From Candidatus Bathyarchaeota archaeon (lineage in GTDB: Archaea > Thermoproteota > Bathyarchaeia > Bathyarchaeales > SOJC01), in assembly GCA_023131225.1 (NCBI GenBank), contig JAGLZW010000008.1, positions 1 through 64,000 on the forward strand: a DNA stretch of 64,000 nt, written 5' to 3'. Made by a program: the position numbers and the translations under genes. The notes under the pieces were generated by a model. It did no database searches, had not been told where the DNA came from, and worked only from the letters and a program-made list of their open reading frames with translations. Shown in pieces: positions 9,467 to 22,712 of the stretch (positions are counted from its first letter, which is position 1; the number at the start of each line of letters is the position of its first letter).

Positions 9467-10162
9467 TTAAGCTTCAAATAAACTGAGGGCGTTCATGTAG
9501 TCATTGTATGTGTCAATAGTTATCCAGGAACCGTGATATTCAAAGCCTTTCAAGGCGTTTTGCCTTGCTAGTTTTGGCAGCACCAGTTCTTCGAAGTTTC
9601 CTGTGCTAGGGAAGTGTTTTAGTACGATACTTTTTTTCATAGAGTAGTGTCCAGCATTTACGTAGAAGTCAAGCTGCGGTTTTTCTTCAAATTCTTTGAT
9701 GTATCTGTTTTTAATTTTGACTTTCCCATAGGGCAATGTGGGTTTCGCCAGTAATACAACTATTGAGTTGTCTGATTCTGCAAGGAGTTCATTTGGATTG
9801 AAATCAAATGCAAGGTCATCGACATTACATGCGTAAAATGTTTTACTTTGGATTAGCTGACACGCTTTTTTCAAGGCACCTCCTGTACCAAGTCTGGTGT
9901 TTTCAATTGACATTATTATGTTGGCGATTTTTGTTTGTTTGAATTTTTTATAGATGTCAGTTTTCAACATGATATATCCGAGAAGGTCTTTGCTTAGTGC
10001 AAGGACAATCTTTTTGAAACCATTCTTTGTGAGCCAGTTGACTTGTTTTTCAATGAGGGTTTGGGCACCGAGATTTAGTAGTGGTTTAGGTATTTGGGCT
10101 TCTGGTCTCAGCATCCAAGTTTGTCCACCGCAGAGTATTATTGCTTCTTTTATCTTTGGCAT
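9467..10162 (-). CDS. Sugar-phosphate nucleotidyltransferase-like protein with altered P-loop
   Basis: A 231-residue NTP-transferase fold protein. The N-terminus EAIILCGGQTWMLRP and IPKPLLNLG align with the GGxGTRLRPLT...PKPL signature of enzymes that make NDP-sugars. Further signs are GTGGALKKA, a metal-binding VDDLAFDFN, and FEEKPQ. The Gly-Thr-Arg of the signature is replaced by Thr-Trp-Met, which removes the arginine that contacts the nucleotide phosphates. Length is short, without a C-terminal beta-helix. It may be a divergent enzyme or a non-catalytic regulator. It is monocistronic, with a TATA box 33-45 bases before its ATG. Confidence 0.75.
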   Translation of the reverse strand: MPKIKEAIILCGGQTWMLRPEAQIPKPLLNLGAQTLIEKQVNWLTKNGFKKIVLALSKDLLGYIMLKTDIYKKFKQTKIANIIMSIENTRLGTGGALKKACQLIQSKTFYACNVDDLAFDFNPNELLAESDNSIVVLLAKPTLPYGKVKIKNRYIKEFEEKPQLDFYVNAGHYSMKKSIVLKHFPSTGNFEELVLPKLARQNALKGFEYHGSWITIDTYNDYMNALSLFEA

Positions 10163-11243: not shown

Positions 11244-12293
11244 TCATATTACTCCCGTTTTCTTTGCAAGCACCTTAGCCGATTTTTCGGTCAACCTTTT
11301 TTGGTCCAAAATAGTATACCGCTCGGGCCTAATGGTTCTTGCTTTCACTAAAGATTTTATCAAATCCTCTGACTCAACTCCAAGTTCTTCAGCAGTTGTT
11401 GGAGCACCAACCTTTTCCAACTTCGATTTAATGCGACGCCAATTCAACTCATGCAAACTAGCCATCATTATAGTGCCAACGCCAACCTGTTCCCCATGCA
11501 TTGCAGGCTTAGAAGCAACTAGGTCTAAAACGTGGCTAAACAAATGTTCTGAACCGCTACTGGGTCTACTATTTCCTGCTATGCTCATAGCGACGCCGCA
11601 GCTTATGAGCGCTTCCAAAAGAACTCTCAGTCCCTCCTCATTCCCTGGTCTAATAGACTCCGCGTTTTTTGCAACGAGCTTTGCGCTCATTAGTGCCAAG
11701 CTTGCAGCGTATTCACCATAATATTCATTTTTCACTTTGTGTGCGAGATGCCAGTCGCGAACGGCGGTGAATTTGGCGATGACGTCACCACATCCACTGG
11801 CTGTGTAGCGATGAGAAGCTTGAATAATGATATTTGTGTCTGCAATTATGGCCATAGGAGCCTGTGCCATAACGGAGTAGGGCTTTTCTGACCCCTTGAT
11901 TGAAGCGAGAGGACTTGCAATGCCGTCATGGGACGCACTGGTAGGTACGCTTATGAAAGGTGTACCTTGCTGTGCGGAACTGAGCTTTGCAATATCGATT
12001 TTTGTGCCGCCTCCAACTCCCAGAACCACTTGAGGCTTTGTTTCGTTTATCCTAGCTCTTACAGCAGCTACTTCCTCCACGGTGGAAGAGGACACTAACA
12101 AACGATCGACACCGATTCCGGAATCCTCAAGTAAGTCAATAACTCTGTGTCCTGCAATTTTGAATGTCTGGGTGCCTGTTACAACAAAAGCTGACTTTAG
12201 AAATCCGAGTTTTTTGCAGATAGGTACCACCTGCTCTATAGTTCCATTTCCGATTAGAACTTCTCTTGGGAGTTGCATTTGATGAAGCTTCAT
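11244..12293 (-). CDS. egsA: sn-glycerol-1-phosphate dehydrogenase
   Basis: This enzyme reduces dihydroxyacetone phosphate to sn-glycerol-1-phosphate, the backbone of archaeal lipids. The protein (349 residues from the ATG at 12293; an in-frame TTG is two codons upstream) shows the NAD-binding VLGVGGGTKIDIAKL motif, the ISVPTSASHDGIASP loop with a metal-binding Asp, and the zinc histidines in GSEHLFSHVLD and MHGEQVGVG. Length fits the family. It is divergent from the proteasome gene, with a shared 150-base regulatory region containing a perfect palindrome. Confidence 0.92.
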   Translation of the reverse strand: MKLHQMQLPREVLIGNGTIEQVVPICKKLGFLKSAFVVTGTQTFKIAGHRVIDLLEDSGIGVDRLLVSSSTVEEVAAVRARINETKPQVVLGVGGGTKIDIAKLSSAQQGTPFISVPTSASHDGIASPLASIKGSEKPYSVMAQAPMAIIADTNIIIQASHRYTASGCGDVIAKFTAVRDWHLAHKVKNEYYGEYAASLALMSAKLVAKNAESIRPGNEEGLRVLLEALISCGVAMSIAGNSRPSSGSEHLFSHVLDLVASKPAMHGEQVGVGTIMMASLHELNWRRIKSKLEKVGAPTTAEELGVESEDLIKSLVKARTIRPERYTILDQKRLTEKSAKVLAKKTGVI

Positions 12294-12354
12294 GGTCAAA
12301 GGAAATCACTCCACTTGCAAAGTACGTTTTCCATCTATACTAGTGTCCACGAAA

Positions 12355-16773: not shown

Positions 16774-16787
16774 ACAGACCACCTTTG

Positions 16788-16820
16788 CATGTTACGTACA
16801 TGTTATGCAGCAATATAGAA
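16788..16820 (-). promoter_or_regulatory. Promoter and candidate operator of the RHH gene
   Basis: The minus-strand TATA box TTCTATATTG (16811-16820) lies about 40 bases before GTG 16773. Between them 16788-16802 reads CATGT-TACGT-ACATG, perfect 5-base arms around a 5-base spacer that is itself nearly symmetric. A repressor bound here would block the start site. The RHH protein itself is the obvious candidate (inference). Confidence 0.45.
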
Positions 16821-16952
16821 TTTTCCCTATGCGTTTTCGATGTTCCGCTAAATTTCCGCTTTCCAAAACATATGAATCGCTTTCTCCTTCAGCGTGCACA
16901 TTCTTCGGGTCAGAAGCATGACATTTCCTTGTGTTATTACTCCTTTGCACAG

Positions 16953-17306
16953 TTAGATTGTTTCTTGCCTGATTTCATGCAATTCTCTAAGGATGCTGGG
17001 AAAAATTCTGTTAACGTCTTCAAGGTACAACGCAGAGTTCTTTATTTTTCTTTGAATCAAACCTGCAGCCAAGAAAGACCAGCCCAAGACGTCGTCAATT
17101 ACTATAGGGAATGGAAAAGCGATAAGTGTCAATCCAATTTTTATCAAATTGCCTCGGTTACTTTCTTTGCAGAGTCGTTTAATGAGTTCCGGCATATCCC
17201 CATTTCCCCGAACAGCGATATTTATTATGGCCATGTTCTCTTTCCAATCTTCACCCAATTCCCTCAATATATCAGTTGTTTTTTTTAGCTCCTCTATCTC
17301 TTTCAA
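16953..17306 (-). CDS. Conserved archaeal hypothetical protein
   Basis: A 117-residue protein with charged helices at both ends (EIEELKKTTDILRELGEDW, and EDVNRIFPSILRELHEIRQ) and a hydrophobic middle (LIKIGLTLIAFPFPIVIDDVLG, then SFLAAGLIQRKI) that could be one hairpin or two membrane-embedded helices. No catalytic motif is visible. The TTG start is supported by AAGGAG eight bases upstream. It lies on the same strand as the RHH repressor, 180 bases away. The clean reading frame and start signal make it a real gene; function unknown. Confidence 0.6.
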   Translation of the reverse strand: MKEIEELKKTTDILRELGEDWKENMAIINIAVRGNGDMPELIKRLCKESNRGNLIKIGLTLIAFPFPIVIDDVLGWSFLAAGLIQRKIKNSALYLEDVNRIFPSILRELHEIRQETI

Positions 17307-17463: not shown

Positions 17464-18000
17464 TTGAGCGAAATATGGCAAAAATGCAAGTCTGCTGGAG
17501 ATGTTGTCACTAGGTTAGTCTTTTATAGTTTTCAAGTTGTTTATTCTATTCTGAGAGTGTTCCGGTTGTCCAAATACGCGTGTATTCTTCTTACAAGGGA
17601 AAAGTGGTGGAATAGACGTATTGTTCAAAGTCGTGCAGGCAAAAGTGTTCAGGCTTTTGTCCGCAAAAACGCTGTAGGCCCAATAGACACAACATTATTG
17701 CTTTTCTATGTTGTCCACCCAATACGAGAGGTTAGAGGAATCGGTGACTTCGAAGAACGTGTCGTTGGGGAGATCGAAGCAGTGTGGAAAGACTACAACG
17801 AAGAGACTGTTTTCAAATCGCATGATGAATACTTGGATTTCATTCAGGGGCGAACCAAGACAACCTTCATCAGGTTTAAAAATCTGCGTGAGCTGTATCC
17901 TCCTATTCCTCTCAAAAAACTGCTCCAAGTTGTTGGAGTCTCTAGATTACCCCGAAGTGGCAAATATTTAAGCAAAGAGGCTATAAATAAGCTGCTGTGA
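17464..18000 (+). CDS. PUA-fold (DUF365-like) putative RNA-binding protein
   Basis: A 178-residue protein. From residue 35 the sequence KYACILLTREKWW...VQAFVRKNA, TTLLLFYVVHPIREVRGIGDFEERVVG and FIRFKNLREL resembles the EVE/ASCH/DUF365 branch of the PUA fold, small domains that bind RNA or modified nucleotides. The first 30 residues are hydrophobic and may be a wrongly included leader; several later in-frame starts are possible. The gene ends 13 bases before guaA on the same strand, so cotranscription is likely. The role is inferred from the fold only. Confidence 0.65.
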   Translation: MSEIWQKCKSAGDVVTRLVFYSFQVVYSILRVFRLSKYACILLTREKWWNRRIVQSRAGKSVQAFVRKNAVGPIDTTLLLFYVVHPIREVRGIGDFEERVVGEIEAVWKDYNEETVFKSHDEYLDFIQGRTKTTFIRFKNLRELYPPIPLKKLLQVVGVSRLPRSGKYLSKEAINKLL

Positions 18001-19266: not shown

Positions 19267-19593
19267 GTGGTGCTTGTTAGAGTTCAACGCATTGAATCAA
19301 TCCGCGACCCGGAAGGTATCCTAGGAAAGCGTATAGAGCTTGTAGAGGAACATAAGATACCGCGGTTCGCTATTCAACCAGCCACAGAAGAAGCAAGGAT
19401 GGTGCAAAGCGTAGTTCAAGCCTTACAGCAACAGCTTCCTGTACAAACTATGCGAACAGGATTTAACCTGCCCAAAATCATCCTGTTCTTAACCGAGCAA
19501 GAATATGACCAGCTAAACATCAAATTCGATGTTAATCAAACCTATGAAGTCGAGCTTTCAAATCAAAGCATGAAGTTCAGCAAGGTACTCTAG
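19267..19593 (+). CDS. Arcadin-1-like protein
   Basis: A 108-residue protein starting VLVRVQRIESIRDPEGILGKRIELVEE and ending with FLTEQEYDQLNIKFDVNQTYEVEL. The pattern resembles arcadin-1, a small partner of crenactin in archaeal actin clusters. No crenactin gene is in the window, and the neighbour is guaA on the same strand (54-base gap), so the cytoskeletal role is only suggested. The GTG start has a GAGGG ribosome-binding site. The 3' end overlaps the convergent gene by four bases. Confidence 0.5.
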   Translation: MVLVRVQRIESIRDPEGILGKRIELVEEHKIPRFAIQPATEEARMVQSVVQALQQQLPVQTMRTGFNLPKIILFLTEQEYDQLNIKFDVNQTYEVELSNQSMKFSKVL

Positions 19594-20060: not shown

Positions 20061-20711
20061 TTATTTTATGATATTGAGAAGATAAAAAACAATAAGGTAT
20101 AGGGCGTAACCTATTAGAATCAGACCACTGATTGCTCTAATTTTGGATTGATGTCTGTACGTGCTTCTAGCCAGCTTCGAAATTGAGCCAGCAAAAACTC
20201 CAATACCAATGAAGGGAACAATTGCCCCTACGCAAAACACAAAGAGAGTGAATAAGAAAGTCTCAGGAAGCAGTAAAGGCATTATGGAAACGAAAATAGG
20301 TGCAATGCAAGGATCAAGAAAATAAAAGATAAATCCAAGAAGAAAAAGCCCAGCGTATGTGATGACAAACTTTCTGGCAAGCTTTTTGATTACAGGCTTT
20401 GACTGGAAGCGGCCCGTGAAAGGAATTTTAAGCACTCCCAGCAAATTTAGCCCGAAAACTAAGGCGAAAACGCATACAATCCATGTTAACGAATATTGAA
20501 GTACTGGCATTGATAGAAAAACTAACCCTAGAACCACTGCAAGAAGAATGGTTGCGGATAGAAAGCCCATTCCAAAAATCATAACCCTCGAAAAACTTTC
20601 CTTGAAGGGCGATGTCTTGCTTATAGTATAGCTCAATACGAAGGATAATAGTATGATTAGGCATGGCGAAAAAGTCTCAAAAAAGCCAAGCGTGAAGGCA
20701 AGCATGAGCAT
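20061..20711 (-). CDS. ccdA: CcdA-like membrane domain, C-terminal part of a frameshifted thioredoxin-CcdA fusion
   Basis: The 216 residues contain six hydrophobic segments with the CcdA/DsbD pattern: FFETFSPCLIILLSF (helix 1 with Pro-Cys), then YFLDPCIAPIF in helix 4, the second redox cysteine. CcdA moves electrons across the membrane to extracytoplasmic thiol proteins. The frame stays open upstream of this ATG for about 75 more codons with no start codon, to a point near 20946 where it joins the frame of the thioredoxin-like gene. That intervening piece (20712-20945) encodes a CARDB-like beta domain. So this is the membrane half of one longer gene broken by a one-base change. Confidence 0.75.
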   Translation of the reverse strand: MLMLAFTLGFFETFSPCLIILLSFVLSYTISKTSPFKESFSRVMIFGMGFLSATILLAVVLGLVFLSMPVLQYSLTWIVCVFALVFGLNLLGVLKIPFTGRFQSKPVIKKLARKFVITYAGLFLLGFIFYFLDPCIAPIFVSIMPLLLPETFLFTLFVFCVGAIVPFIGIGVFAGSISKLARSTYRHQSKIRAISGLILIGYALYLIVFYLLNIIK

Positions 20712-20914
20712 GGTTGTTAGGGCTGCAAAGTGGGAAGATGTAACCTCAATTTCGCTATAAATGTAGATGTTGTTTACTAAGTTGGTTTCATTCGCGACAG
20801 GTTCTGCTTCGGTTTTTATTGTATAGCTTCCGAGGGTTTGGTTTGTTGTGTACCAAGTGTAGATTATCGAAAGCTCATGTTTTGGGCTTAAACTCGTGAC
20901 TGTCTGCGTTCCAA

Positions 20915-21364
20915 TCAGGGATTCGTTGCAGTAAACGTTAACTTCAAAGCTCTCCTTTCAATTCCGGCATTTTTGAGGGTGACAGTGATGTTTATTTTTT
21001 CGCCAACCACTATAACGGAGTGGGAAGGCATTACCTTGATTACAGATACATCGTGAACTAACTCGTATAAATACGCATCAACTACTCCCCTTACGTAGGT
21101 TTCATTAGCATATCCCCCAATCACTTTTTCATAATTAAGTACAATAGTGTTCTGGCATCCAAGTTCTATACCGTACTGTTCAACCTTCTCTTGGCCCTCT
21201 AGAGAGAAAAAATCGATCCTCTTGACCAAGACTTTTGATCCATATTCTGTTTGAATAGCCTCTACTACTTGGTTATTATGCAGATACAACTTTGATGGCG
21301 GACATACTGGACAGGGCTCGTAAAATAAGAACTCTATGACAACTGGTTCCACTGAATGGCTCAC
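20915..21364 (-). CDS. Thioredoxin-like domain plus CARDB start, N-terminal part of the broken fusion
   Basis: Residues 1-95 form a thioredoxin-like domain with the redox motif EPCPVCPP at about residue 16, and residues 105-145 begin a CARDB-type beta domain (VVGEKINITVTLKNAGI). The frame stops soon after. At the T run read as GCTTTGAAGTT (about 20946-20952) adding one T restores a continuous frame through the CARDB domain into the CcdA membrane part. Upstream of the GTG start another frame has an ATG at 21414 followed by RLALVVCFLSYLYSL, a likely signal peptide, so the 5' end may carry a second shift. The intact protein would be an envelope thiol-redox enzyme. Confidence 0.65.
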   Translation of the reverse strand: MSHSVEPVVIEFLFYEPCPVCPPSKLYLHNNQVVEAIQTEYGSKVLVKRIDFFSLEGQEKVEQYGIELGCQNTIVLNYEKVIGGYANETYVRGVVDAYLYELVHDVSVIKVMPSHSVIVVGEKINITVTLKNAGIERRALKLTFTATNP

Positions 21365-21542
21365 ACTAATGAATAAAGATAAGATAGGAAACAGACAACT
21401 AATGCAAGTCTCATGTTTACTCTGTCACTCTCTACGATTAGGAGTAGGCTTACACCAATTAAACATTATAGATTAATCTTCTATGCCTATCTCAATCTAC
21501 TCCTCTTTTTTCGGTCATATATGCTGTCTTCACTTAAGGCGT

Positions 21543-22712
21543 CTAATAGCCAATGTTATCCTCTTTTATGGTTAAGAGAATAATAATCGCGGGAACGATT
21601 ATCAGTGAAGACAATTTGAAGATTGTCTGAATTGGAACGGTTAGTGCAAGCCACCCTGCCAAAATGGACCCGACCGTGGAACCTATAGGAAACATGGTTT
21701 GGAGAAGAGCTATTCCCACACTTGCATCTTCACTGTCAACAAGATCACCAATAAGTGCAGTTTCTGGAGCAACCCTCAACCCCCAAGCAAATCCATAGAG
21801 AGCCATAGCTAGAATAAAGGCAATGAAACTCGCTGTTTCTGAAAACAGCAAAAACACGCCCACCAAAATGACGTATGCGAGTATGATAGGTTTCTTTCTC
21901 CCAATTCTGTCAGAGATTTTCCCTGAAGGCAAACGTAAGAGAGTATTAGATATTCCTCTAATCATAAACAAGGCGCTCACAAGAAATGGTGCGACCAATA
22001 AAACATCTCGAGTATATACAGAGAAGACCGTGGCAAACATCGACGCTGTAATTGCAAATAAAACTCTACAAGAACATAATGCTAAAACACTTCGATTCTT
22101 CAGAACCCGCCCTACAGATCCTATTCCACTGTTGTATCTTTCCACAGAGGATTGGCCTTTGCTCGATGACATGGTGAAGTATATACCAAAACCGATGGCT
22201 GGAAACAACGATAGCACCAAGAAAAAATCGCTGAAGTTTAGAAACTGTAAAAGTAGAGTGCTCAGCAATGGACCTGAAATCATGGCCAATCCGATAGATG
22301 TGAAAAAGACTCCAAACATTTTTCCCCTGCTCTTGGGAATTGCTAAGTCGTATATGGCTGCGGTAATTATTGGCGGGAAGAGAGCCACGGCAATTCCCTG
22401 CAAGATTCGAACCGCAAAAAGCGCGCCTAAATTAGATAGAAAGCCCAGAAGCAGAAATGACACAAATTGAATGGCTAGAGCAAAGAGAACTATCCGTTTT
22501 TTCCCAATTCGACCGGCAATGGTTCCTATGGGAAGCCTAAGAAATATGGAAAAGAGAGAAGGCAATGCCATCAAAAGACCCAAATCAAAAAAGGAGAAGC
22601 CAAGATCATCAACATGCAAAGGAAAAACAGGTGCAAAAGCTAGCCACCCCATCCATAGAAAGAAGCTGGTTCCCAATATTGCATATAATTCTCGCAGTTC
22701 CTCTCCATCCAT
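21543..22712 (-). CDS. Major facilitator superfamily transporter
   Basis: A 389-residue protein with twelve predicted membrane helices in two six-helix halves. Family motif A appears twice, after helix 2 (GTIAGRIGKKRIVLF) and after helix 8 (GKISDRIGRKKPIIL). Such carriers exchange or export small solutes, often drugs or sugars, using ion gradients; the substrate is not visible. It is a single gene, with 113 bases to the divergent acylphosphatase gene. The ATG start leads into a short cytosolic segment before helix 1, as expected. Confidence 0.88.
   Translation of the reverse strand: MDGEELRELYAILGTSFFLWMGWLAFAPVFPLHVDDLGFSFFDLGLLMALPSLFSIFLRLPIGTIAGRIGKKRIVLFALAIQFVSFLLLGFLSNLGALFAVRILQGIAVALFPPIITAAIYDLAIPKSRGKMFGVFFTSIGLAMISGPLLSTLLLQFLNFSDFFLVLSLFPAIGFGIYFTMSSSKGQSSVERYNSGIGSVGRVLKNRSVLALCSCRVLFAITASMFATVFSVYTRDVLLVAPFLVSALFMIRGISNTLLRLPSGKISDRIGRKKPIILAYVILVGVFLLFSETASFIAFILAMALYGFAWGLRVAPETALIGDLVDSEDASVGIALLQTMFPIGSTVGSILAGWLALTVPIQTIFKLSSLIIVPAIIILLTIKEDNIGY

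Follow-up and report, generated by a model that had tools for sequence, protein, structure and literature searches.

The minus strand between positions 21414 and 20061 of a 64,000-nt stretch of a Candidatus Bathyarchaeota archaeon genome (contig JAGLZW010000008.1; hereafter the window) carries three pieces of one protein, spread over three reading frames. The first piece (21361–21414) occupies a frame of its own, in which an ATG at 21414 begins MRLALVVCFLSYLYSLV, a hydrophobic, signal-peptide-like leader similar to the leaders of intact homologues; this frame closes after 17 codons. Homology places a first switch, from the leader frame to the thioredoxin frame, at approximately 21365–21390. 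The second frame is open for 169 codons and ends in a stop at 20915–20917; read from a GTG at 21364, it specifies 149 amino acids (20915–21364) that cover a thioredoxin-like domain and the initial part of a CARDB domain. The codons of its CPVC redox motif lie at 21302–21313, and the two cysteines align with those of the homologues. A second switch falls within CARDB, at 20950–20962 by homology, and coding statistics show a frame change at about 20955. The third frame, open for 298 codons from 20957 to 20064 with a stop at 20061–20063, holds the second part of CARDB and a CcdA membrane domain (together 20061–20957). It contains no ATG, GTG or TTG upstream of an ATG at 20711, and hence none ahead of the CARDB part; this ATG begins the longest open reading frame (ORF) with a start codon, a CcdA-like membrane domain of 216 amino acids (20061–20711) whose model has CcdA (PDB 5vkv) as its best PDB match. 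The first CcdA cysteine, in an SPC motif, is encoded at 20661–20663 and the second, in a DPC motif, at 20307–20309, both assigned through a homologue profile aligned with the PC motifs of 5vkv.

An earlier reading of this DNA from its letters alone (the sequence-only reading) had proposed a broken thioredoxin–CARDB–CcdA fusion gene with a signal-peptide-like ATG in yet another frame and a CARDB-like segment that is open without a start codon, and all three observations hold: homologous pieces lie in three frames, relatives have them intact in one ORF, and the first available start codon is beyond CARDB. It had put the second break at 20946–20948; the break exists, roughly 10 nt from that position. 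Judged from profile matches, the Pfam CARDB match and the coding-statistics switch, the frame pieces are far from what chance would produce.

A profile of intact homologues matched the CcdA frame with E = 1.3e-113 and the thioredoxin frame with E = 2.3e-33. The Pfam CARDB family (PF07705) scored 26.0 bits in the third frame of the window, against a cut-off of 22.7 (E = 1.1e-5), and passed its curated cut-off in five of ten scanned homologues, with 27.7–66.2 bits. On the thioredoxin frame of the window, NCBIfam TIGR00411 gave E = 1.5e-4, below its curated cut-off. For the frames of the window themselves, neither Pfam nor NCBIfam gave a thioredoxin or DsbD_TM hit that passed the cut-off; both domains are therefore identified through the homologue profile and structure models. 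Pfam DsbD_TM (PF02683) was above cut-off in one of ten homologues scanned (L075) and below it in L081. Compared with PDB entries, a profile of 12 homologues matched CcdA 5vkv at E = 3.1e-4, its two PC motifs lining up with those of that chain, and thioredoxin 1fo5 at E = 2.3e-3, with the CxxC aligned. The two PC-motif membrane cysteines are invariant in the 12 aligned rows and both are present in the window; the distant homologue in G234 has AC in place of the second PC motif.

The predicted structures agree with these assignments. A model of one intact homologue (L069; mean pLDDT 78.7) matched CARDB 3idu (Z 14.9, rmsd 1.7, 107 residues aligned) and thioredoxin 1v98 (Z 12.3, rmsd 1.6, 85 residues aligned); its pTM of 0.46 makes the relative placing of the domains unsure. 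Because the β-sandwich domain dominated the match list of a whole model, we folded the CcdA domain of the window alone (mean pLDDT 74.0). 5vkv ranked first of 61 Foldseek matches (probability 1.00, E = 4.1e-3; TM-score 0.47, rmsd 7.4), the second-ranked one had E = 0.75, and none of the 61 reached E 0.001. A thioredoxin fold with a CxxC is thus found in the homologue family, as is a sequence match to the CcdA/DsbD family, which the window frame alone does not give.

We searched 256 genomes of the class with the family profile (E ≤ 1e-12, at most six first-look candidates scored per genome), a design that may pass over relatives that are distant or have the parts as separate genes. Matches occurred in 21 genomes, and in 17 of these thioredoxin and CcdA share a single open frame, one of them (G008) cut by a contig end that removes the CxxC part. 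CARDB stands between the two domains in seven of the 17 fusions, in one copy in G036, G060 and G011 (by Pfam) and in two copies in G003 and G012 (by Pfam) and in G008 and G168 (by reading of the sequence). The remaining fusions (G176, G044, G004, G007, G017, G169, G155, G041, G048 and G234) are without CARDB, and G048 and G234 are the most distant members. The length of about 430 residues expected of a repaired window protein is close to the lengths of the three one-CARDB homologues (449, 456 and 456 amino acids). The four non-fused cases are the genome of the window (G000), a second genome of the same genus (G001), G156, which has a partial membrane domain, and G028, which has pieces with stops on two contigs. 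An earlier search with the CARDB and CcdA frame against 61 genomes (that of the window and 60 relatives; E ≤ 1e-5) likewise found homologues that read through thioredoxin, CARDB and CcdA in a single frame, and a scan of named genomes, built on an eight-row alignment, located 13 loci, 11 in Bathyarchaeota, one in Baldrarchaeota and one in an uncultured archaeon.

Homologues in which the two parts are separate genes would speak against a fusion, and among the 21 matching genomes the fused state prevails; the counter-case is the distant G054, which turned up in the 61-genome search. This genome has a 290-amino-acid CcdA-like ORF without thioredoxin (L026, G054:C66; 28% identity over the membrane part, E = 4.3e-7) and, on a second contig, a weak thioredoxin-like match with a stop (L047, G054:C67; E = 6.4e-5), and may represent an ordinary two-gene arrangement. 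The fused chain foreseen by the sequence-only reading is therefore supported by the 17 fusions, whereas its joining segment, CARDB, proves to be optional. In a separate locus of G004 (L105:883-2016, minus strand), a paralogous thioredoxin domain is attached to a different C-terminal region with a single terminal hydrophobic stretch and without the CcdA core.

The membrane cores of CcdA and DsbD take electrons from cytoplasmic thioredoxin and pass them outward, as described in the parts consulted of PMC3961690, PMC3842002 and PMC7997004, the last of which also reports CcdA homologues in Asgard archaea. The intact family resembles DsbD, in the passages of PMC3961690 that describe it, in joining on one chain an outer thioredoxin, an outer β-sandwich and a membrane electron-carrying core, but differs from it in order: DsbD runs from an Ig-like nDsbD through the membrane core to the thioredoxin cDsbD, and the intact homologues from thioredoxin through zero to two CARDB domains to the membrane core. 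Furthermore, nDsbD is itself a redox domain in that account, whereas CARDB has no invariant cysteine in five aligned fusions of the family. For this reason CARDB is more likely a spacer, which its number of zero to two also fits. To judge by domain order, the intact family is not DsbD. It shares with CcdA (5vkv) the membrane core with both aligned PC cysteines; CcdA, according to the sections seen of PMC3842002, is served by separate thioredoxin-like partners, whereas the family has its thioredoxin fused N-terminally. With the MJ0307-type archaeal thioredoxin (TIGR00411, 1fo5) it has in common the CxxC thioredoxin fold, and it differs from that thioredoxin by its leader peptide, its fusion and, mostly, the lack of a proline at the cis-proline column. 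In mycobacterial DipZ a CcdA-like core also shares one chain with thioredoxin-like and β-sandwich domains, the membrane core coming first, unlike in the intact homologues. The one-chain electron relay that the sequence-only reading thought unusual is thus an uncommon arrangement for which DsbD, with such domains on one chain in a different order, already offers a precedent in principle. Among the matches listed in the open-licence literature, titles and abstract openings held no recognisable description of a thioredoxin–CARDB–CcdA fusion, and no paper there paired a CARDB domain with thioredoxin; the CcdA and DsbD passages seen in PMC5403849, PMC3842002, PMC7997004 and PMC8351635 do not describe the fusion.

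The cis-proline of thioredoxin is, by alignment, mostly not found in this family. The profile column that faces the proline of 1fo5, before the third strand, holds Asn in 12 of 18 intact homologues, Pro in four (G007, G155, G048 and G234), Ser in one and Gln in one, and Asn in the window. Three of the 14 homologues lacking it (G017, CSMAG571 and the Baldrarchaeota member) have a proline one residue earlier, which a shifted alignment could restore to the column. None of the six full-length CARDB fusions has such a proline, and the thioredoxin domains of L069:4001-5368 and L074:3971-5686 are examples of those without it. Its absence could reflect a chemistry other than ordinary disulfide reduction. 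A more specific version, which we hold unlikely, is that the family is an archaeal counterpart of DsbD in another order in which Asn has replaced the cis-proline and the CxxC binds a metal or an iron–sulfur cluster or exchanges electrons with its own CcdA only; the protein would then be specialised for handling metal or storing electrons and would not act as a disulfide reductase of general use. The cis-proline is claimed, in the part seen of PMC13269488, to be a universal lock in thioredoxin-fold catalysis, and its absence here, if it reflects real chemistry, would test that claim.

The same-genus genome G001 aligns with the window in three blocks within 1525–29477 at 95.4–97.0% DNA identity, and lacks about 2.1 kb at this locus. 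The missing stretch is bounded by 9-bp direct repeats at 20345–20353 and 22440–22448 (plus strand), as would be expected for a deletion between short repeats. At the junction, the start of a major facilitator superfamily (MFS) gene is joined to approximately the last 45% of the CcdA domain, and the thioredoxin is gone; the ccdA remnant has two 1-nt indels and the MFS remnant a 1-nt indel and a stop. In the window, this MFS transporter gene (21543–22712, minus strand; Pfam MFS_1, E = 9.1e-46) is the neighbour of the locus and has one open frame. On the other side, an Arcadin 1 homologue (19267–19593, plus strand; Pfam E = 1.9e-23) adjoins a GMP synthase-like gene. The locus is thus broken in each of the two genomes of the genus, and the lesions differ; the deletion in G001 could, however, stem from faulty assembly. 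A search for further CcdA-type genes in the two genomes gave none: Pfam DsbD_TM matched 11 of 14 control genomes but neither of these two, and it misses the window locus itself, while the family profile returned this locus and, beyond it, a single weak hit in G001 (E = 0.034, interrupted by two stops).

Apart from its frame breaks, the window copy itself bears few marks of decay. It keeps the CxxC and both PC cysteines and breaks none of the columns that are invariant in all other members (0 of 46 in CcdA, 0 of 5 in thioredoxin); scored against the CARDB fusions only, 3 of 92 CcdA columns and 3 of 24 thioredoxin columns are broken, compared with 1–11 and 1–7, respectively, in intact members. 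In poorly resolved trees, its CcdA end branch is 0.19, beside 0.14 for G036, 0.16 for G060, 0.21 for G011 and 0.29 for G003, and its thioredoxin end branch, 0.66, equals the median. Over the ccdA remnant, dN/dS between the window and G001 is 0.30 (nine synonymous and nine nonsynonymous changes), within the spread of nearby ORFs, and, by eye, at least four of the amino-acid differences seem to have arisen in the G001 lineage and one in that of the window. The four residues just after CPVC in G036 are missing from the window, and some open homologues have gaps there too. Invariant columns, branch lengths and dN/dS gave no sign of long neutral decay of the window copy. Because the catalytic cysteines are kept and there is no excess of substitutions, the gene was broken recently, unless sequence errors produced one switch or both. 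Elsewhere in the window, two plus-strand ORFs (16785–17288 and 17464–18000) have dN/dS values against G001 of 1.01 and 1.25, the former overlapping a minus-strand ORF and probably not being a gene, and a 231-amino-acid ORF at 9467–10162 (minus strand) corresponds to two frames in G001.

We favour, at a probability of about 0.75, the reading that a single-chain thioredoxin–CARDB–CcdA gene has recently been inactivated at this locus, the window copy being most likely a young pseudogene. Its main competitor, that the organism has an intact gene and that sequencing or assembly introduced the frame switches, would also account for the preserved catalytic residues and invariant columns and for the ordinary branch lengths, and small indels do separate the window from G001 at 26 sites over about 25.7 kb of alignment, 18 of which involve a single base. 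Nevertheless, we consider it unlikely. When the 29 ORFs of G001 of at least 100 amino acids that match the window were compared, 25 aligned in one window frame, and only this locus among the other four is clearly broken in the window: these four are the relic itself, the 231-amino-acid frame that is two in G001, a start-region difference at 12242–12334, in which the break may be on either side, and a probable non-gene. Over the roughly 22 kb aligned to G001, no clear break was found in other window genes. At an upper-bound rate of 3 per 23 kb, two errors would fall within 1.35 kb with a chance of about 0.014, a rough figure that assumes no other window break and is higher if the start-region case is counted. 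Moreover, the sister genome lost the locus through a different lesion.

Two further explanations would leave the locus working as it stands. If the pieces were expressed separately, CcdA from ATG 20711 and thioredoxin from GTG 21364, the gene would be split and functional; the ATG lies just ahead of the first helix of the CcdA frame, dN/dS over the ccdA remnant is below 1, and the distant G054 has a CcdA-like ORF without thioredoxin. Such a thioredoxin ORF, however, would be without its signal peptide, and no start codon is available for the second half of CARDB. In the closer homologues the parts are fused, and the same-genus genome lacks thioredoxin and about half of CcdA. All of this makes separate expression very improbable. 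Programmed ribosomal frameshifting, which could link the three frames, finds a possible signal at the second switch, a purine-rich stretch that by eye resembles a ribosome-binding site; it would require two events in one gene, where the intact homologues require none, and we give it almost no weight.

For the intact family, the domain content suggests a function that probably resembles that of CcdA or DsbD with its partner. The protein would be exported N-terminus first, and because it begins with a leader peptide followed by thioredoxin, the thioredoxin would face outside, beside the core. Using its two PC cysteines, the CcdA core would accept electrons from thioredoxin in the cytoplasm and hand them to the CxxC of the tethered outer thioredoxin, which in turn would reduce extracytoplasmic disulfides, while the zero, one or two CARDB domains would set the reach of the thioredoxin. 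In the ORF lists around four intact copies (G036, G060, G003 and G012), we recognised no shared redox partner; the copies in G036 and G060 each have next to them a gene that looks chaperonin-like from its first residues.

The intact family combines known parts in a new and uncommon arrangement: an outer thioredoxin is wired to a CcdA core on one chain, in a manner other than that of DsbD and with a probable spacer whose length varies. Its hosts are uncultured archaea, about whose envelope redox chemistry little is known. The locus in the window matters mainly as a case of recent loss: the only CcdA-type locus found is broken in both genomes of the genus, in which the pathway may be dispensable and under loss.
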